From: an uncultured Anaerolineales bacterium
Lineage (GTDB): Bacteria; Chloroflexota; Anaerolineae; Anaerolineales; UBA4823
Direction: 5' to 3'
Assembly (NCBI GenBank): GCA_937928795.1
Contig: CALFWB010000040.1
Span: forward strand, 1 to 64,000
Length of the DNA stretch: 64,000 nt
The notes under the pieces were generated by a model that was given only the letters and a program-made list of their open reading frames with translations, had not been told where the DNA came from and ran no database searches. Numbering within the stretch: position 1 is the stretch's first letter; each line of letters starts with the position of its first letter. Made by a program: the position numbers and the translations under genes. Positions 41,747-56,324 of this stretch are shown here, piece by piece.

Positions 41747-41756
41747 TTAACGCTTG

Positions 41757-41830
41757 GCCCGTTAGCTCAACCCGGTAGAGCAGCTGACTCTTAATCAGTT
41801 GGTTGCAGGTTCGAGTCCTGCACGGGTCAC
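41757..41830 (+). tRNA. tRNA-Lys (anticodon CUU)
   Basis: 74 nucleotides with a 7-bp acceptor stem (GGCCCGT/ACGGGTC, one G:U), D-arm with GCTCAACCCGGTAGAGC, anticodon stem-loop CTGACTCTTAATCAG reading CTT, and T-arm GCAGGTTCGAGTCCTGC. Discriminator A; the CCA end is not encoded (CCT follows). A consensus promoter precedes it. Confidence 0.95.
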
Positions 41831-42644: not shown

Positions 42645-42859
42645 CTCAGCCTGATTGTAATCGATGAATCGAAAGTAATCGTTTATTTTGCAAAAAATCC
42701 TTAGATGACGCAGATTTCGCAGAAAAATTCAAAAAATTCGCTCTATGATTCGGTGAGCACTTAAGAGTTGTTGACCGCTTGATTTGACGGATATAAACGC
42801 AACTAGCTTTGTGGAGAAACGTATATACGGAGGAAGTAGTTTTTAGAAAGGAGTTTACA

Positions 42860-44218
42860 ATGTCTAAGGTTAAGAAAAGTGTGTATTTGGGAGTGCTAAT
42901 GATTTTCGTATTTGTCTTCTCACTGATCATTCCCATGGGTGTGCAGGCAGTTGAAACTGATCCAGATGGAAAGATCGAGAAAGGACAGATGATTGACGAT
43001 GATTGGTTTGCAAGTGGAGAGCGGGTAGTTGTGGATGGGGTTATCAAAGGCGACCTATATGCTGCAGCTAATACAATCGTGATCAACGGGGTTGTTCATG
43101 GAAGCGCTTTCCTCGCCGCTCAGACGATTGAGATCAATGGAGCAGTAAAGGGAAGCCTGTACGGCGCTGCTCAATCGCTTTATTTGGGGGAAGAAGCGCG
43201 AATTGAACGCAACCTCTTCTATGCCGGGTTTGCGCTTCAGGCCAAAGCAGGATCGAAGGTGGGGAAAGATGCATTATTTACTGGTTATCAAGCTGCTCTA
43301 GAAGGGCAAATCCAACGCGATGTTCTTGCTTCGGTAGGGGCATTAGAAGTCAATGGCGAGATTGGGCGCAATGTGCGGGTGACGGTTGGGGAGCCTGAGG
43401 AAGGTCAGACCCGTTCCATGCCATTTTACACAGCTCCCGGTGCGCCACCGATGATCCCCACCGGCTTGCGCATTAAAGAAGGCGCAAAGATTGGTGGCAC
43501 ATTGACTTACAGCAGCACAAAGGAGCAATCCGAGGGCATAAAGGCTAAACCTAAAGGAGAAGTTATCTACAAACCCATTGAAACCGCAGATCGGCAAACT
43601 ATGCTGGGAAAATCACGCGATAGTTTGCCTTATAGGGTGGGCATGTATGTCCTAAACCGCCTTCAGGAAATTGTCACCCTGTTTATCATCGGCCTGCTGG
43701 GAGTTTGGTTGCTCCCTCAGCATTTACAGGGTTGGAAGGAGCGCATGAAAACCGAACCTCTTGCTGCGGGGATCAGCGGTTTGTTGACCGTGTTGGTCGG
43801 ATATGGCGGAGCTGCTTTGCTTGCGTTGGTGCTTCTAGCAATTGGCATATTAATAGGTGTCCTAACGCTTGGGGGATTAAGCAGAACAGTGTTGGGGATC
43901 GGTTTTTCATCGCTAGGCTTGGCTCTAGCAATTTTTAGCCTGATAGTTACCTATGTGAGTAAGGTCTTGGTCTCTTTGTGGATTGGGGAGTGGACGATGC
44001 GACGCTTTGCACCGCAGGCGGCTGAGAAAATTCTCCTCGTTCTTCTGGTGGGAATTTTGATTTACGTGTTTGTACGCTCGATTCCGATTTTGGGTTGGGT
44101 GGTTGGGCTACTTGCAACCTTAGTGGGTGTGGGTGCCATCTATTTGGTTCTACGAGATCGCATCCGCCTGCCATCTAAACCCATGAGCAGTGTCGAGGCC
44201 TTGTCTTCGGACGGCTGA
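42860..44218 (+). CDS. Exported membrane protein with bactofilin-like repeats
   Basis: 452 residues from ATG 42860, preceded by AAAGGAG. A signal peptide (hydrophobic core then MGVQAVE) is followed by bactofilin-type beta repeats: VVDGVIKGDLYAAANTIVINGVVHGSAFLAAQ and EINGAVKGSLYGAAQ, continuing to about 230. After a linker come about five membrane segments (270-440). Bactofilins are normally cytoplasmic polymers; here the signal sequence places the repeat domain outside. It may form a surface or periplasm-side scaffold. Function unknown. Confidence 0.78.
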   Translation: MSKVKKSVYLGVLMIFVFVFSLIIPMGVQAVETDPDGKIEKGQMIDDDWFASGERVVVDGVIKGDLYAAANTIVINGVVHGSAFLAAQTIEINGAVKGSLYGAAQSLYLGEEARIERNLFYAGFALQAKAGSKVGKDALFTGYQAALEGQIQRDVLASVGALEVNGEIGRNVRVTVGEPEEGQTRSMPFYTAPGAPPMIPTGLRIKEGAKIGGTLTYSSTKEQSEGIKAKPKGEVIYKPIETADRQTMLGKSRDSLPYRVGMYVLNRLQEIVTLFIIGLLGVWLLPQHLQGWKERMKTEPLAAGISGLLTVLVGYGGAALLALVLLAIGILIGVLTLGGLSRTVLGIGFSSLGLALAIFSLIVTYVSKVLVSLWIGEWTMRRFAPQAAEKILLVLLVGILIYVFVRSIPILGWVVGLLATLVGVGAIYLVLRDRIRLPSKPMSSVEALSSDG

Positions 44219-48836: not shown

Positions 48837-49901
48837 TCAAGGTTGACTGAGGAAGCGGTTGCTCAGGGTGTAATGGACATAATTTTGAATTAGGCTGGTC
48901 ACCATGTCGCGACGGTAGTTATGCGAAGAGAAGGTTTGGATGATCACGCGGCCGCCCAGACAACTGGCAATCACTCCATGATCCGATTTTGAAGTTGCCT
49001 TTGTTCCGGCTATAAGCTGTGCGTCTCCGCTGCCGGTGATTTTGAGCAGATCACCTTGATCAGTTTCGTCCCAAAAGACACTGAAATTGCGCAAGGAGAT
49101 GCCTTTGTTGGGAGACGTAAAAATTGGGTGATCTGGGACTAGCGGATAAACCGATAGGTCAGCAAGCCACCATTCCTTGAAGTACCAATCTCGATAGATG
49201 CCCACACCACACTTCATTAGAATTGGGGCAACTTTGCCTTGTGAGAGATCATCGAGCGCCCAATGTTCGATAATCACTGCAGTGCCTCGGTTGATGTGAT
49301 CGAGCAAATACACAAAAAACTCACCTTGAATTTTGGTGCGAGCTTCTGAGGCAGCGATAATTAGATCCCATTGGTTAGAAGAGAGTAAATCATCCTTAAA
49401 CCATCCTTGGGCGCTGCCATCGTCTTTGAAGGTATAACCGCCCATTTCCAGGGCTTCTTGGTAGTACTCCAGTTGTCCTGTGCCGGACATATCTTCAAAG
49501 AGAAGGATTTTTGCATTCTTGATTTTTTGCTCAATATCTACGCTCGGTTCGGGGGAAGAAGGGGGTAAGGGAGGAGCTTCTGTGGCTTGGGGTGGTGGGG
49601 GATTGGTCGGTGGAATCTGCCCGGCTTGTTGGGTCAGTTGAGCAATTTGTTCAGCAAGCATGGTCGCTTGGACTTCCTGAGCAATGCGGGTACGTTCTGC
49701 AGCCGCTGCAGTCTCCTGTGCGCCTTGGTTGGCTTGTTGAGCTTGCAGGGTGAGCTGAACTTGGAGGGCGGTTTGGGTTTGGAGCAGGGATTGATCGGCC
49801 TGGCTACTTGAGATACAAGCGATCGCTGCAAAAAAGAACACAAAGGGAAGGATGACCCATCGGTAAACTGGCAAACCATAGGGTGGGGTAATTCGTTTCA
49901 T
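48837..49901 (-). CDS. Lipoprotein with coiled coil and GATase-like C-terminal domain
   Basis: 354 residues. Signal with lipobox FAAIAC. Residues 35-95 are a Gln/Ala-rich coiled coil (LQTQTALQVQLTLQAQQANQ), then a Pro-rich linker. From about 125, KILLFEDMSGTG, WDLIIAASEART and GTAVIIEHWALDD suggest a class I GATase-like/ThuA-like sheet, without an obvious catalytic Cys. Start has TAGGAGAATAGT upstream. Surface-exposed, function unknown. Confidence 0.7.
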   Translation of the reverse strand: MKRITPPYGLPVYRWVILPFVFFFAAIACISSSQADQSLLQTQTALQVQLTLQAQQANQGAQETAAAAERTRIAQEVQATMLAEQIAQLTQQAGQIPPTNPPPPQATEAPPLPPSSPEPSVDIEQKIKNAKILLFEDMSGTGQLEYYQEALEMGGYTFKDDGSAQGWFKDDLLSSNQWDLIIAASEARTKIQGEFFVYLLDHINRGTAVIIEHWALDDLSQGKVAPILMKCGVGIYRDWYFKEWWLADLSVYPLVPDHPIFTSPNKGISLRNFSVFWDETDQGDLLKITGSGDAQLIAGTKATSKSDHGVIASCLGGRVIIQTFSSHNYRRDMVTSLIQNYVHYTLSNRFLSQP

Positions 49902-50235: not shown

Positions 50236-53160
50236 TCAGTCCGTGATCTTAAAGATGACCTCTGCTTGGGAAGCATTGCCGGCTAAATCGTATACGATGG
50301 CAACTACGCGATGAGAGCCTACACGGGATTGCCACGGAAAAGCATAGGGTGGTTGGGTGAAGGTATGGATGATACCTCCATCCAAGTAGAGCTCAACTCT
50401 TTGAATGTCCAAATTGTCGGCGGCTTGAATTTGAAAGGTAAGGGTGGTGAATTCTTTGATGGAATAAGTTCTTTCGCTTTCGGGAAAGGTTATGCTCAAG
50501 GTCGGAGGAGTATTATCAACAGTCAGTTGAAGGAGGGCAGTTTCAACGCGATTTTCCTTACCAACGACTTGGAGTTGAAGCGTGTATAAACCGCTCAACC
50601 CCTGGGTATCCCAAGAGCCGAGCTTTCCGTCTTTCACAGGATTTGGCTGATCGCTGCCGATTTGAATCCAACGGCGGGGAAACAATCCCTCGCCAACTTG
50701 CAAGCGATAATATTGAAAGTTTTCACCACCTGCACTGCCGACAATCGGGATAATGCCGCGCACATAAGAAAACATTTGAGGTGAGGTGATTCGGGCGTTC
50801 TGGGAAGAGAGTGAGGGCGACTGAATTCGATCATACTCTTTCGGAGGGAGGGGAATGCCTTCTGCTAATGCCCACTGGTGCGCTTCCGCTGGGATTACCA
50901 TGTAACGTTGTTCTTTAACCAATTCCAAAGGCGTGAAAACGGTTGCCAGTCGTCCGGTTTGCTCATTAATCAAGTAGGTCTGAAAGAGCTGATCGGTTTG
51001 GCGAGGCTCGAACCCGGAAATAAAAATCTCGCTCACGATTGACGGACAATCTGCGTCAGGTAACATCCCAGACGGATCGCAGACATTTTGTCTTAATAAT
51101 GTCGGCGGCATTGTCCAATCCGAAGCTGGAAATTTTTGAGAGCTATATTGCATCAAGGCATGCCAAAGATTCATTACACTGGAGGGTTTGAGAGAGAGCT
51201 CGGGGGTTTGTTCGTTTCCCAGCCAAACTGCAACTAACCGCTGAGGCGTATAACCAACTGTCCAATATTGATTGGGATGGAAAGTGCGACCTAGTTTAGC
51301 AGCGCTGCGCCGCCCAATTTCAAAAGGATTGGGGTGTCCAAATGTCTGCCAACGTGCTGCCTCATCAGCCAAGACATGCGTGAGAAGATAGGCAAGCTCA
51401 GGGCTGATAACAGCTCGGTTTTCAAGGGTGGTTTGATCGTTATCAAGGTCAAAGAGCGTTTTACCGTTCCGTTCGCTTGCCTTTTGGATCAGGATAGGAT
51501 AGACCTGTGGCGTGGATTGAAAGGATGCTTTCGTCCTTCTCCACCCTCTGAGTAGGCCTTGATTTGCGAGGACTTGATAGGCTTGGGCAATTTCCAAGAT
51601 GGAGACTTTACTTGAGAAGAAAAGCTGCTTGGGGTCAAGCGCAGTTGTGGTTGTCTTTTCTGGGGATTCGTCTAGGCGGATACCCAGTTGTTGAATGACG
51701 TTTGAAATGGTTTCTGTCCCAATTTGATTAAATAGAGATAAAGCTGGCGCAAAATAATCATTGGCAAGGGCGATGCGAGCTCGCAGCGGGCCATGAAACT
51801 TTCCATCGAGGTTGGCGAGAATTTCTTCAGAGTCTGGGGGAATATCCCATTGAAGCGTTGCCGGTTGAATACCACGGGAGAAGGCGGCTAAATAGACAAA
51901 AGGAGTCAGAATTGTGCCTCCCCGATGCTTTTCTAGGGCTTTATTTACAAAGGGTTGTTTTTCATCTAAAGTTTGGGCAAAACTTGCCAAAGCCAGAACT
52001 TGGTTTGTAGCTGGTTCGATAATTATCCCTTGAGCTTGCAATGGGAATGAGAAAGTATTAGAAGTAGCAGCTACTCCGGGCAAGAGCAGCGCTGCGGGAC
52101 AATCCGTGGCTGTGGGGGTAGAAGGATCGTCAGTGTGTGTGATTCGAGACATCTGCACTTGCAGCGTGCATTCGAGATTGTGTTGCAGATCGGGATCGAT
52201 TGTGGTTAGAACATCCCAACCGCCGCGCTCGACCACTTCCAAAGGAAAAAGCTCAGAAAGTTGTTGAAGGATGATCGCAACATACGCAGGATGATGTAAC
52301 TCAAGATTGATAGAAGAGGGGGCAAATTTTAGATTTTCCAAATTCGCTGACCCGATTTCCTCCGTTCGCATCCAACCGCTTTTGATCAGATGGACAAGAA
52401 TATCCCCGGTTCGCTTGCGCACGACCTCTGGCGCATTGAGAGGGTGAATCGTTGGGCTCTCAAGGATGGAAACGAGCGCCGCAGCTTCGATCATATCCAA
52501 CTCTGCAGCCGATTTATTGAAATACAGTTGCGCTGCAGTTTCAGCTCCGTAAATCAGGGGTCCAAATTTGGCGCTATTGAGATACCAGATCAATGTCTGT
52601 AGTTTTCCATAGCGCTGGTTGAGTTGTGCGCCGAGGATCTTGGCGCGTAAGGTTTTTCGCCAGCTTGGGGTTTCGCTCCACAGGATCAAATCGTAAGCTA
52701 AGTGCTGAGCGATAGTGTTGAGTTGAGGGGTGGCGAAATCGCGTAAGCTTAATGCGGGGTTTGGGGAGAAATCCGGTTCGAGGGAAGCAATTACGGCGCG
52801 GGCAAGGGGAGATTCTAGAGCGAGTTTTGGGAGGGGGCTTGAGGAGTCGGGTAAGTCTAACCACAAGCGTTGAATGGCGGGATACTCTAAGCTGGCAAGA
52901 ACCGTTTTTCCATCGCGAGCAAGAAATCGAGTTGGGTTCTTTAGGTCACCATCTTGAGTATTAAGGAGTTGCTCGACTTTTTCAAAGGGTGGGAGATCGC
53001 TTAATAGACTGGTAACAAACCCTCCTAACCCAAGGATGGCAAAAGTCAAAGAAAGGCTGATCACGGTTGCTATGAACCAGCCAGTGACGGGCAGAGGATT
53101 GCGACGCCAAACCTGTTCCCGTCTGCGGCGTTGACGAATGATCTGCGTGACTGTTTTCAT
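50236..53160 (-). CDS. Class A penicillin-binding protein homologue with degenerate active sites
   Basis: 974 residues with the class A layout: membrane segment (25-50), GT51-like domain (about 75-265), transpeptidase-like domain (about 300-680) and a C-terminal Ig-like domain (about 880-974). Every catalytic motif is altered. GT51: the EDxxF motif reads LEPDF (127-131), GGSTxTQQ reads QLNTIAQH, and the second Glu in RKxxE is Arg (RKTLR). Transpeptidase: SxxK reads TILT (416-419), SxN reads DYF (468-470), KTG reads KLG (622-624). The frame is intact, so this looks like a retained pseudoenzyme. It starts 3 bases after recN. Confidence 0.82.
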   Translation of the reverse strand: MKTVTQIIRQRRRREQVWRRNPLPVTGWFIATVISLSLTFAILGLGGFVTSLLSDLPPFEKVEQLLNTQDGDLKNPTRFLARDGKTVLASLEYPAIQRLWLDLPDSSSPLPKLALESPLARAVIASLEPDFSPNPALSLRDFATPQLNTIAQHLAYDLILWSETPSWRKTLRAKILGAQLNQRYGKLQTLIWYLNSAKFGPLIYGAETAAQLYFNKSAAELDMIEAAALVSILESPTIHPLNAPEVVRKRTGDILVHLIKSGWMRTEEIGSANLENLKFAPSSINLELHHPAYVAIILQQLSELFPLEVVERGGWDVLTTIDPDLQHNLECTLQVQMSRITHTDDPSTPTATDCPAALLLPGVAATSNTFSFPLQAQGIIIEPATNQVLALASFAQTLDEKQPFVNKALEKHRGGTILTPFVYLAAFSRGIQPATLQWDIPPDSEEILANLDGKFHGPLRARIALANDYFAPALSLFNQIGTETISNVIQQLGIRLDESPEKTTTTALDPKQLFFSSKVSILEIAQAYQVLANQGLLRGWRRTKASFQSTPQVYPILIQKASERNGKTLFDLDNDQTTLENRAVISPELAYLLTHVLADEAARWQTFGHPNPFEIGRRSAAKLGRTFHPNQYWTVGYTPQRLVAVWLGNEQTPELSLKPSSVMNLWHALMQYSSQKFPASDWTMPPTLLRQNVCDPSGMLPDADCPSIVSEIFISGFEPRQTDQLFQTYLINEQTGRLATVFTPLELVKEQRYMVIPAEAHQWALAEGIPLPPKEYDRIQSPSLSSQNARITSPQMFSYVRGIIPIVGSAGGENFQYYRLQVGEGLFPRRWIQIGSDQPNPVKDGKLGSWDTQGLSGLYTLQLQVVGKENRVETALLQLTVDNTPPTLSITFPESERTYSIKEFTTLTFQIQAADNLDIQRVELYLDGGIIHTFTQPPYAFPWQSRVGSHRVVAIVYDLAGNASQAEVIFKITD

Positions 53161-53163
53161 CGG

Positions 53164-54903
53164 TCAAAAGGTAGCGCTCTGGGCGATTTTCTCACTGACC
53201 ATGTGGAGCAATTCGCGTGCCGATTGCAGGGTGGCTTGGTTGAGATCGCCCATCATTTGCGCCAATTCTTCGACCCTTTGTTCACCTTTCAGGGTTTGCA
53301 CCTCAGTGATAGTGCGATTGTCGACAATCTTCTTACGGACTAGGAGATGTTGATCGCCGAAAGCGGCCAATTGGGGCAGGTGAGTGACACAGAAAACTTG
53401 ATGATGGCGCGCAAGTTGCCATAATTTCTCTCCGACAACTGCCCCGACTCGTCCACCTATGCCTTGGTCAATCTCATCAAAGACCAAACAAGGTACGTCA
53501 TCGGCTGCCGCCAAGACGCCTTTCAAAGCCAGCATCAGCCGTGAGGTTTCACCGCCGGAAGCAATCTTGATGAGGGGCTTATACCCTTCGCCGGGATTGG
53601 GGGCGATCAAGAATTCCACTTGATCAATGCCGCTGGAGTTAAAGGCGACCTTACGAGTGTTTCCCAGAGGGATACCGTTCTCCGCGTCGGTCTGATGAAT
53701 TTGCACCTGGAAGCGCGCTTTTTCCATGTTTAGGGAAGCCAGTTCGCGTTCAATGGCTTGAGCTAATGATAAGCTGTGTTGGCGACGATTCTCGGATAAC
53801 TTAAGAGCCACCTCGCCCAATTCGGTTAGCAGGTTTGTTTCAAGCTTGGACAGGGCTTCAATCCGCTCTGATGCAGAGGTGATTTCTTCCAATTGGCTAT
53901 GGGCCCGTTGGGCATACTTCAAGATGTCTTCCACACTCTCGCCGTATTTGCGTTTTAGGGATTGAATCAGATTGAGCCGCTCTTCGATAAAGTCAAGCCG
54001 TTTAGGGTTGTATTCGATTTCTTCGGCGTAGTGACGCAATTCTCGCGCAAGCTCGTTAAGCCTTTCAAAGATTTCCTCAGCCGACTCTAAGGTGCCGCTC
54101 TGCGAGCTATCCAGCCGCACAAGACTACCTAAATGGTGGACAACCTCACCCATCTGGTCAATAATTGAAGGATTTTCCGGGCTGCCCTCGTCTAGGATTA
54201 GGATGGATTGTTGAATCAAACTGGCAAGATTTTCGGCATTGGCTAAGCGGTTGCGCTCAGCAAGGAGGGTTTCTTCCTCACCTGTTTTTAGGTGAGCATT
54301 TTCGATCTCGGCGATTTGGTATCGGAGGACATCTAATCGCCGCGCTGCTTCTTGTTCGATTTGGCGCAGATGAAACAATTCCCGCTGAACCTCTGTCAAT
54401 TCCCGATATATCTTTTGGTATGCGGAACGCAAGGGTTCGTTTTTGGCGTAATTGTCCAATAAGTGCAGATGCTGATTGACCTTCAGCAAGGATAAATGCT
54501 CCGATTGACCATGGATATCTACCAAATATTCGCCGATTTCCCTTAGGGTTGACAGGCTAACAACCCGCCCGTTAACGCGTGCAATGTGACGGCCGCTTGA
54601 GCGGATTTCACGGCATAGAGAAACTTGCTCGTTATCTTCATCCAGCTCCTCCCGCATTAAGATTTCTAGCAGGGGCTTGCGGATGGTTTGCGGGATAAAG
54701 AAATCTCCTTCTATGAGTGCTTTCTCTGCGCCACTGCGGATGTAGCTAATATCTGCCTTCCCTCCCACAAGTGCTTCGAGGGCATCAACTAAGATGGATT
54801 TTCCTGCTCCTGTCTCGCCGGTTAGGATGACCAAGCCGGGCTCAAAGTGGAGATTGAGTTCTTCAATGATCGCAAAATTGGAGATGCGCAATTCTTCGAG
54901 CAT
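53164..54903 (-). CDS. recN: DNA repair protein RecN
   Basis: 579 residues, SMC-like ATPase. Walker A GETGAGKSILVDALEALVGGKAD, N-terminal LRISNFAIIEELNLHFEPGLVILTGETG, central coiled coils (about 150-370), signature GGETSRLMLALKG and Walker B VPCLVFDEIDQGIGGRVG, then CVTHLPQLAAFGDQHL. It acts early at double-strand breaks. It is in one operon downstream of nadK and the zinc-finger membrane gene. Confidence 0.96.
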   Translation of the reverse strand: MLEELRISNFAIIEELNLHFEPGLVILTGETGAGKSILVDALEALVGGKADISYIRSGAEKALIEGDFFIPQTIRKPLLEILMREELDEDNEQVSLCREIRSSGRHIARVNGRVVSLSTLREIGEYLVDIHGQSEHLSLLKVNQHLHLLDNYAKNEPLRSAYQKIYRELTEVQRELFHLRQIEQEAARRLDVLRYQIAEIENAHLKTGEEETLLAERNRLANAENLASLIQQSILILDEGSPENPSIIDQMGEVVHHLGSLVRLDSSQSGTLESAEEIFERLNELARELRHYAEEIEYNPKRLDFIEERLNLIQSLKRKYGESVEDILKYAQRAHSQLEEITSASERIEALSKLETNLLTELGEVALKLSENRRQHSLSLAQAIERELASLNMEKARFQVQIHQTDAENGIPLGNTRKVAFNSSGIDQVEFLIAPNPGEGYKPLIKIASGGETSRLMLALKGVLAAADDVPCLVFDEIDQGIGGRVGAVVGEKLWQLARHHQVFCVTHLPQLAAFGDQHLLVRKKIVDNRTITEVQTLKGEQRVEELAQMMGDLNQATLQSARELLHMVSEKIAQSATF

Positions 54904-54918
54904 GGTTACAGCCGAGGT

Positions 54919-55452
54919 TTAGATTTTGAGTTGAATGCCGGAGAGCCGATAGTACACCGAAGAAGTGACAAGGAAGGAATACAAAGCTTGTAAGGCTAAG
55001 CTGATCAGTCCGCCAAAACTAGCCGAGGAGAGAGCGTTTAGGGCGATAAAAAGGCTGAGAAGCAAGTAGGGCAGTGATCCTAACGCAGTAGCGATGGCAA
55101 TGGTTTGATAGAGCCTTTTCGCGCGCCTTTTTTGGATCACAGCCCGACAGACTTCGGCGATGATCGTCCCAGCAATTGGCGATAAGAGAATGGCAAAGAA
55201 CCACAAGCGCGGGATCCATTGACTACCGAAGAAGGAAAGAACGGCCGCAAGAATGCTGGCGGTGATGTAATCATACCAAAGGGCGGTTTCAAAGGCTTTC
55301 TGCTGGCCCCGCACACAATCCTTACAGCGATAGCCGGTCGGGGTGAGAATGGCGCATTTGGGGCAAATGGGTTTTTCGCAGGTGCTACAACGTAAACTGG
55401 TTTCAGTGTTCGGATGGTAATAACAAGTGAGAGAAGGCGGTTGTTCGCTCAT
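54919..55452 (-). CDS. Membrane protein with N-terminal B-box-like zinc finger
   Basis: 177 residues. An N-terminal cysteine/histidine finger (CYYHPNTETSLRCSTCEKPICPKCAI..GYRCKDC) is followed by about four membrane segments. Such proteins are common in Chloroflexota and related groups, with unknown function. It overlaps nadK by 4 bases and precedes recN by 15 bases. Confidence 0.75.
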   Translation of the reverse strand: MSEQPPSLTCYYHPNTETSLRCSTCEKPICPKCAILTPTGYRCKDCVRGQQKAFETALWYDYITASILAAVLSFFGSQWIPRLWFFAILLSPIAGTIIAEVCRAVIQKRRAKRLYQTIAIATALGSLPYLLLSLFIALNALSSASFGGLISLALQALYSFLVTSSVYYRLSGIQLKI

Positions 55453-56324
55453 CGTGAGATTCCAGTAGCAGGGTTACGATTCATATGAGGAGTGAGGTTA
55501 CGATAAAAATAGCCCGGATCTTGAAAGCGGACAAAGTGGGCATCATGTTCACTTGCCCGTACCTCCACTTGGTCTTGATCGATCAGGGGGATAGGAGCTT
55601 GACCATCGATGCAGAGTAGGGCATCGTGATCCGTATGGATGATCACACGCACCGACGAGCCTTCAGCCAAAACGATGCCGCGGTCGATTGAAAGATGGGG
55701 CGCTACAGCTACAAGTAGGATATTGCGCAACTCAGGGGGTAAGATCGGGCCTCCCGCTGCCAGAGCGTATGCAGTTGATCCGGTAGCGGTGGATGCAATT
55801 AAGGCATCGGCAACGTAGGTGGTCAGGTATCGCCCGTCAACATGAGTCTCCAAGTGCACCGGGCGCACCATTTGACCGCGCCCGACGACAACTTCGTTAA
55901 GGACATGGTGGGTGCTTAAGGCCTTCTCATTGCGTTGATGGGTGCATGAAAGCATCATCCGCTTTTCTAACCAGAAATCGCCCTTTAGCACTCGCGGCAA
56001 ATATTGTTTCCATTCATTGAGGCGGATCTCCATCAAGAAGCCGAAACGACCAGCGTTAATACCGAGGATTGGGATGTCATAGGGTCCGCAAATATGACCC
56101 GCTCGGAGCATGGTGCCATCTCCGCCGAGGACAATGAGCAGATCAATTTCGTGATTTTTGATGCTCTGTGCTAATTTTTCCTCGTAAAGCATGGCAATTA
56201 AGGAGTCTTGACCATGTCGCTTGAGGAAATGAGCGATCTTATAGGCTTCTTGATTAGCTTCAGGCAAGCTAGGGTGAGCCGCAATCGCAATTTTCCGAAA
56301 AGTTGTTAAGTTCTTCTCGTTCAC
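55449..56324 (-). CDS. nadK: NAD(+)/NADH kinase
   Basis: 291 residues. VLGGDGTMLRAGH (GGDG motif with catalytic Asp), ILGINAGRFGFL, and STATGSTAYALAAGGPILPP, the NE/D and GGD hallmarks of NAD kinases, are intact. It makes NADP from NAD and ATP. GTG start with no ribosome site; TATAAT ends six bases before it on the minus strand, so the message is probably leaderless. It heads the nadK-membrane-recN-PBP operon. Confidence 0.95.
   Translation of the reverse strand: MNEKNLTTFRKIAIAAHPSLPEANQEAYKIAHFLKRHGQDSLIAMLYEEKLAQSIKNHEIDLLIVLGGDGTMLRAGHICGPYDIPILGINAGRFGFLMEIRLNEWKQYLPRVLKGDFWLEKRMMLSCTHQRNEKALSTHHVLNEVVVGRGQMVRPVHLETHVDGRYLTTYVADALIASTATGSTAYALAAGGPILPPELRNILLVAVAPHLSIDRGIVLAEGSSVRVIIHTDHDALLCIDGQAPIPLIDQDQVEVRASEHDAHFVRFQDPGYFYRNLTPHMNRNPATGISR

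Follow-up and report, generated by a model that had tools for sequence, protein, structure and literature searches.

A full-length class A penicillin-binding protein homologue with replaced catalytic motifs, maintained across an order of Anaerolineae

The active sites are the defining feature of penicillin-binding proteins (PBPs), and homology-based annotation labels such proteins as wall synthases; the structural roles of class A PBPs, as opposed to the catalytic ones, are otherwise studied through engineered point mutants. Among described systems, the class A PBP (GT51 plus PF00905; PBP1A/PBP1C-like, including canonical Chloroflexota orthologues) shares with the protein analyzed here the domain order, the membrane anchor, the predicted fold, homology over the whole length and direct common descent, but the protein analyzed here differs in the apparent loss of both catalytic centers. 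In Bacillus subtilis, PBP 2B with an active site inactivated by engineering revealed a structural role that is independent of catalysis (PMC5656894); such a role would be shared with our protein, but PBP 2B belongs to class B, is naturally active and was inactivated artificially. Clostridioides difficile PBP3 has a non-catalytic regulatory role in division, in which it acts with a class A synthase and for which its own activity is experimentally dispensable (PMC12539705); this protein, too, is of class B, whereas in the protein described here the motifs were lost in nature, long ago. Among the open-access papers searched, none was found to describe a family of class A PBPs that is dead in nature, in line with the original prediction, made from the sequence alone, that knew of no description of a dead class A PBP.

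In the window, that is, the whole stretch of 64,000 nucleotides that was analyzed, the gene (Table 1) is an intact open reading frame (ORF) that runs from ATG to the stop codon with 0 internal stops, so that the claim of a gene without frameshift or stop stands. The protein matches the Pfam families Transgly (4.6e-18, profile positions 68-174 only), Transpeptidase (3.3e-6) and Big_7 (6.6e-10), and a phmmer search against solved structures yielded class A PBPs over the main part and Ig/FN3-like modules at the C-terminus. The scores with the NCBIfam models are 211.7 bits for TIGR02074 (PBP_1a_fam), under the cut-off of 508.75, and 146 bits for TIGR02073 (PBP_1c), under the cut-off of 494.2. The layout of a class A PBP, with an N-terminal membrane anchor, GT51 and transpeptidase domains in a single chain, is present: strongly hydrophobic 19-mers start at residues 29-31 only, the model contains a helix at residues 23-53, and the cytoplasmic part comprises about 25 residues. 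The AF2 model of the full protein (mean pLDDT 85.5, pTM 0.72) matched class A PBP structures in Foldseek, the best being 3dwk (3dwk_D; molecule name, penicillin-binding protein 2) with TMt of 0.74-0.77 over ~700 columns, and the model of the C-terminal piece (pLDDT 93.9) resembled FN3/Ig-like modules (CbhA 3pdd, SiiE); the class A fold is predicted to be retained. In a tree that included two types of canonical paralogue and canonical relatives from across the phylum, the window protein falls within the class A PBPs, of which it represents a pseudoenzyme branch. A phage origin of the gene was rejected (no PHROG match).

Table 1. Coordinates of the PBP-like gene, its domains and motif remnants, and the genes upstream of it in the window
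Feature	Coordinates	Strand	Evidence
Class A PBP homologue, probably catalytically dead, 974 aa	50236..53160	-	ORF, Pfam, orthologues, AF2 pLDDT 85.5
Basic cytoplasmic N-terminus and single membrane anchor, residues 1-53	53002..53160	-	Hydrophobicity, AF2 helix
GT51-like domain, residues 115-265	52366..52818	-	PF00912 149-255; conservation ~25-32% below active clade
Remnant of GT51 motif 1, LEPDF (catalytic Glu to Leu)	52768..52782	-	Alignment, pattern scan
Remnant of GT51 motif 3, RKTLRAKILGAQL (RKxxE Glu to Ala)	52621..52659	-	Alignment, pattern scan
Linker, residues 266-373, with conserved Cys331 and Cys354	52042..52365	-	Both Cys in 42/42 dead core sequences
Transpeptidase-like domain, residues 374-680	51121..52041	-	PF00905 379-624; Foldseek to class A PBPs
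SxxK remnant TILT	51904..51915	-	Alignment, pattern scan
NDYF, including SxN remnant DYF; Asp468 invariant in dead core clade	51751..51762	-	Alignment, conservation, pattern scan
KTG remnant KLG (Lys622 and Gly624 kept)	51289..51297	-	Alignment, conservation, pattern scan
Post-transpeptidase segment, residues 681-785, with Cys694 and Cys705	50806..51120	-	Conservation ratio 1.06; AF2
First Ig-like domain, residues 786-882	50515..50805	-	Ratio 1.09; Foldseek to FN3/Ig-like modules
Second Ig-like domain (Big_7), residues 883-974	50239..50514	-	PF17957; missing in one dead family
recN, upstream gene, 3-nt gap	53164..54903	-	PF02463; synteny
B-box-like zinc-finger membrane protein	54919..55452	-	PF00643 below cut-off; synteny
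nadK	55449..56324	-	PF20143 and PF01513; synteny

The lesions were placed column by column in an alignment of the window protein with relatives, including ones with intact motifs, and this bore out the claim that both GT51 glutamates and the SxxK, SxN and KTG motifs are replaced. In the GT51-like domain, motif 1 (IAxEDxxF) reads IASLEPDF, with LEPDF at residues 127-131, GGSTITQQ reads QLNTIAQH, and RKxxE has lost its Glu, such that the two glutamates by which an active GT51 is recognized (that of EDxxF in motif 1 and that of RKxxE) are Leu and Ala. The three motifs of an active DD-transpeptidase are likewise replaced, SxxK by TILT (residues 416-419), SxN by DYF (residues 468-470) and KTG by KLG (residues 622-624). 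A pattern scan of the window protein found no E[DE]xxF, no RKxxE and, in the transpeptidase-like region, no KTG-type triad; the four SxxK strings elsewhere in the protein (residues 166, 499, 619 and 673) are all misplaced, and an intact replacement motif elsewhere in the chain was rejected, since none is in register. Because four further genomes of this genus have orthologues (63-70% identity) with the same motif changes, chance or an assembly artefact is excluded as their origin. Judged from these substitutions, the loss of activity in the window protein is well supported, and both pockets are probably dead.

The extent of the lesions varies among the orthologues that lack the transpeptidase motifs (hereafter, dead). 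The second GT51 glutamate was lost only in the genus of the window protein and in part of its kin, and many other dead orthologues keep it (LRERLL), with the first one lost; in family f33, the transpeptidase motifs are lost, both GT51 glutamates are mostly kept, and GGSTITQQ and RK are not, which suggests that the transpeptidase activity was lost before the glycosyltransferase activity. These retained glutamates, together with the KTG remnant, of which Lys622 and Gly624 are present in >90% of the sequences, and with the invariant Asp468 of the core clade, are what could be expected under residual or changed catalysis, i.e., a glycosyltransferase working through the second Glu or a new hydrolase based on Asp468 and Lys622. 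We consider this improbable, given that the window protein lacks both glutamates and GGSTITQQ, that the SxxK Lys is gone from every dead sequence examined, with the Ser/Thr position varying, and that the catalytic regions show the largest drop in conservation (see below).

The window protein has matches in 61 of the 61 genomes of the relatives set, and its profile matches 197 of the 199 genomes of the class, counts that include active paralogues and orthologues. The PF00912 scores of the matches are bimodal (~175-219 bits for canonical proteins, plus some contig-end fragments, and ~35-108 bits for dead ones), and among the 98 sequences that were fetched and read, 64 are dead by their transpeptidase motifs and 34 are canonical. 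The orthologue search identified full-length dead proteins, with the same kind of lesions, that fill an order of Anaerolineae. Almost all of the ~60 dead copies have intact full-length frames; judged by ORF lengths, the internal stops in a few matches seem to coincide with, or adjoin, the natural end of proteins that are shorter. All 19 relatives with the same C-terminal module that were sampled from outside the order of the window are canonical (two of these, L219 and L220, belong to the same class), and a twentieth that was fetched, L223 from the window's order, is dead. In most genomes with the dead protein, it coexists with canonical class A PBPs (1-2 per genome); the genome of the window itself encodes two further class A PBPs, both motif-intact, and three SEDS genes. 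Gain or loss of SEDS was rejected as an explanation because every one of the 61 genomes has SEDS genes, whether it carries the dead or the active form. In one genome (G021; one contig, 84% complete), the dead protein (L058) is the only PF00912 match, and this organism may be without any active class A PBP.

Of the dead proteins in the 98-row tree, 60 make up a single clade (support 98) that adjoins canonical proteins of other families in the same order, and four dead proteins of family f46 (L102, L114, L118 and L125) are nested among active proteins of that family (99/100). Constraining the dead proteins to one clade lowered the log-likelihood by 49.9 units in a 38-row subset (AU test, p-AU = 0.035), so that a single loss is disfavored, albeit not strongly, and at least two independent losses are likely, though not certain, with long branches in play. 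When paralogues from the same genomes were included, the dead protein proved orthologous to one canonical subfamily and separate from both of the canonical paralogue types that are kept; a non-exhaustive look found no genome in which the dead and active versions of that subfamily occur together. Descent of the dead protein from an active bifunctional class A PBP is the best explanation. Family f46 also includes an apparent decay intermediate (L114/L123, G224), in which SxxK is changed to SxxQ and KTG to QTG, SxN is intact, and the GT domain is already broken.

The PBP-like gene starts 3 nt past the stop codon of recN and follows nadK, the gene for the B-box protein and recN in an order that recurs across family f1 and in one other family, f8. 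The original prediction called the gene the last one of a nadK-recN operon, but the linkage does not extend to the dead genes of other families: these, like all active copies examined, lie at other loci and are not linked to recN, so the operon is a local setting and does not belong to the mechanism. The recN-linked copies examined are all dead, and none of them has functional motifs; functional orthologues were found at other loci, in other families, as expected for a descendant of an active enzyme. The conserved neighbors of the recN-linked group are recN, nadK, the B-box protein gene and nearby nudix, sigma factor and protease genes, and a search for a partner through gene neighborhoods found no gene that accompanies the dead form in families outside this group.

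The neighborhoods also bear on a role as a ligand sensor, whose dead pockets would bind, but not react with, beta-lactams, lipid II or muropeptides and would relay a signal. The shell persists, as does part of the pocket frame, and PBP-type sensors are known, e.g., PbpP of B. thuringiensis (PMC8092216); however, the short cytoplasmic part contains no signaling domain, no conserved regulator gene lies alongside across families, and the pocket residues differ among dead families, which makes a sensor quite improbable.

Other features of the window include, as the next gene downstream, a gene for a 354-aa lipoprotein-like protein without a Pfam match (48837-49901, minus strand), homologues of which lie near the dead gene in several relatives. 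In a 469-aa protein (42809-44218, plus strand), hydrophobic segments that probably span the membrane are joined to a bactofilin-like stretch that falls just short of the Pfam cut-off. A tRNA gene (41756-41829, plus strand) is the sole Rfam match in the window.

For five pairs of dead genes, pairwise maximum likelihood codon estimates (GY94-type, F3x4; several dS values are >1 and only approximate) gave omega values of 0.28, 0.14, 0.12, 0.13 and 0.13, and omega = 1 was rejected in each pair (2dlnL 66-519). In matching genome pairs, omega was 0.07-0.16 for recN and 0.06-0.15 for active PBPs. Purifying selection on the dead genes is thus real, but the constraint is somewhat weaker than in active enzymes, i.e., partly relaxed. 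A recent pseudogene is rejected by these omega values and the intact frames. The loss of catalytic residues with maintenance of the frame and of purifying selection is one mark of a pseudoenzyme and holds for these genes. The proposal of a maintained pseudoenzyme rather than a pseudogene is upheld by the selection, the order-wide full-length orthologues and newly fixed residues, whereas the structural, sensing or scaffolding role proposed along with it is an inference.

Regional conservation was measured by comparing mean pairwise identities between 42 core dead sequences and 31 active ones; as these sets are not equally deep, weight should be given to differences among regions rather than to the ratios themselves. 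Relative to the active set, conservation in the dead set is 0.68-0.75 for the GT and transpeptidase domains and the linker (a fall of 25-32%), compared to 1.06 in the post-transpeptidase segment (residues 681-785), 1.09 in the first Ig-like domain (residues 786-882) and 0.88 in the second Ig-like domain. At individual positions, the Cys331/Cys354 and Cys694/Cys705 pairs are invariant in the dead core; Asp468 is present in 42 of the 42 core sequences, where all active proteins have the Ser of SxN (a type II site, S468D); and Trp604, Glu600 and Arg460 are newly fixed in the dead core (>=90%). Many shell residues (W192, N195, G205, Y213, K216, G457, P458, R462, W633 and W646) exceed 90% in both the dead and the active sets. 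Slow decay of a functionless gene could account for the lower conservation of the catalytic domains compared to the active clade and for the strong divergence of some lineages (L080, L081 and L078), but is highly improbable, considering that omega is far below 1, that the frames of almost all dead copies are full-length, and that residues 681-882 are as conserved as in active enzymes while new residues have been fixed.

The reading that we favor, at a probability of roughly 0.55, is that of a maintained, membrane-anchored pseudoenzyme that serves as a scaffold or allosteric partner in wall synthesis, with a retained function in the module of residues 681-882. Catalysis would have been lost at both centers with the class A fold predicted to persist; the membrane-anchored GT/transpeptidase shell would still dock with wall-synthesis partners, namely, canonical class A PBPs or SEDS synthases of the same cell, and the docked protein would act as a scaffold or allosteric regulator, with residues 681-882 still making contact with an envelope polymer or a partner protein. 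A role without a need for catalysis would explain why residues 681-882 keep the conservation of active enzymes while the catalytic domains drifted. The conserved module consists of the post-transpeptidase segment and the first Ig-like domain and does not include the terminal Ig domain: the dead proteins of family f12 (L067 and kin) stop after the first Ig-like domain, and the second one is therefore dispensable. The suggestion that a C-terminal Ig-like domain supports binding rather than catalysis is weak, given that the canonical active sisters carry this domain and one dead family is without it. Several observations argue against the scaffold reading: no neighbor is conserved outside the recN-linked group, omega is somewhat above that of recN and most active PBPs, and the conserved C-terminal module is also found in active enzymes, where it may serve folding or export and not a specific contact.

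The concentration of conservation in residues 681-882, and the resemblance of the Ig-like domains to modules of surface proteins and adhesins in Foldseek, are also compatible with an envelope tether, that is, a wall- or polymer-binding anchor in which the GT/transpeptidase shell is an inert stalk, the post-transpeptidase segment and first Ig-like domain bind, and synthases are not regulated. This alternative appears unlikely: an inert stalk would need neither the many shell residues kept in both sets nor the newly fixed shell residues D468, W604 and E600, and the matches of the Ig-like fold are generic.

As a bifunctional PBP that is full-length and dead at both sites across an order, the protein would be a case in nature in which the structural role of class A PBPs has been uncoupled from catalysis, and residues 681-882 are a concrete starting point toward the non-catalytic partner. 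Counts of active PBPs in Anaerolineae genomes would be too high. More broadly, and tentatively, as we rate this at somewhat less than an even chance, Anaerolineae may harbor a standing class of class A PBPs without catalysis that arose on two or more occasions and is dedicated to regulating or scaffolding wall synthesis; together with the SEDS fusions to dead transpeptidase domains, this would make reliance on pseudo-PBPs a general principle of wall synthesis in the class Anaerolineae.

These fusions are a supporting parallel for a non-catalytic PBP role in the same genomes. The genome of the window contains, on another contig (C71), a SEDS (FtsW/RodA) protein fused to a class B-type transpeptidase domain (L224:957-3383, minus strand); the fusion ORFs of this protein and its relatives (L225-L236, L242-L244) are ~810-960 aa long, SxxK and KTG are gone from every member read, and the SEDS DFI motif is present in most. 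Like the dead class A protein, the fusions have a PBP-type transpeptidase domain without SxxK and KTG that is conserved across the order, but this domain is of class B type, is fused to a SEDS polymerase and is encoded by a separate gene. In L237, L238 and L240, the SEDS and transpeptidase parts are separate neighboring ORFs that are likewise motif-less.
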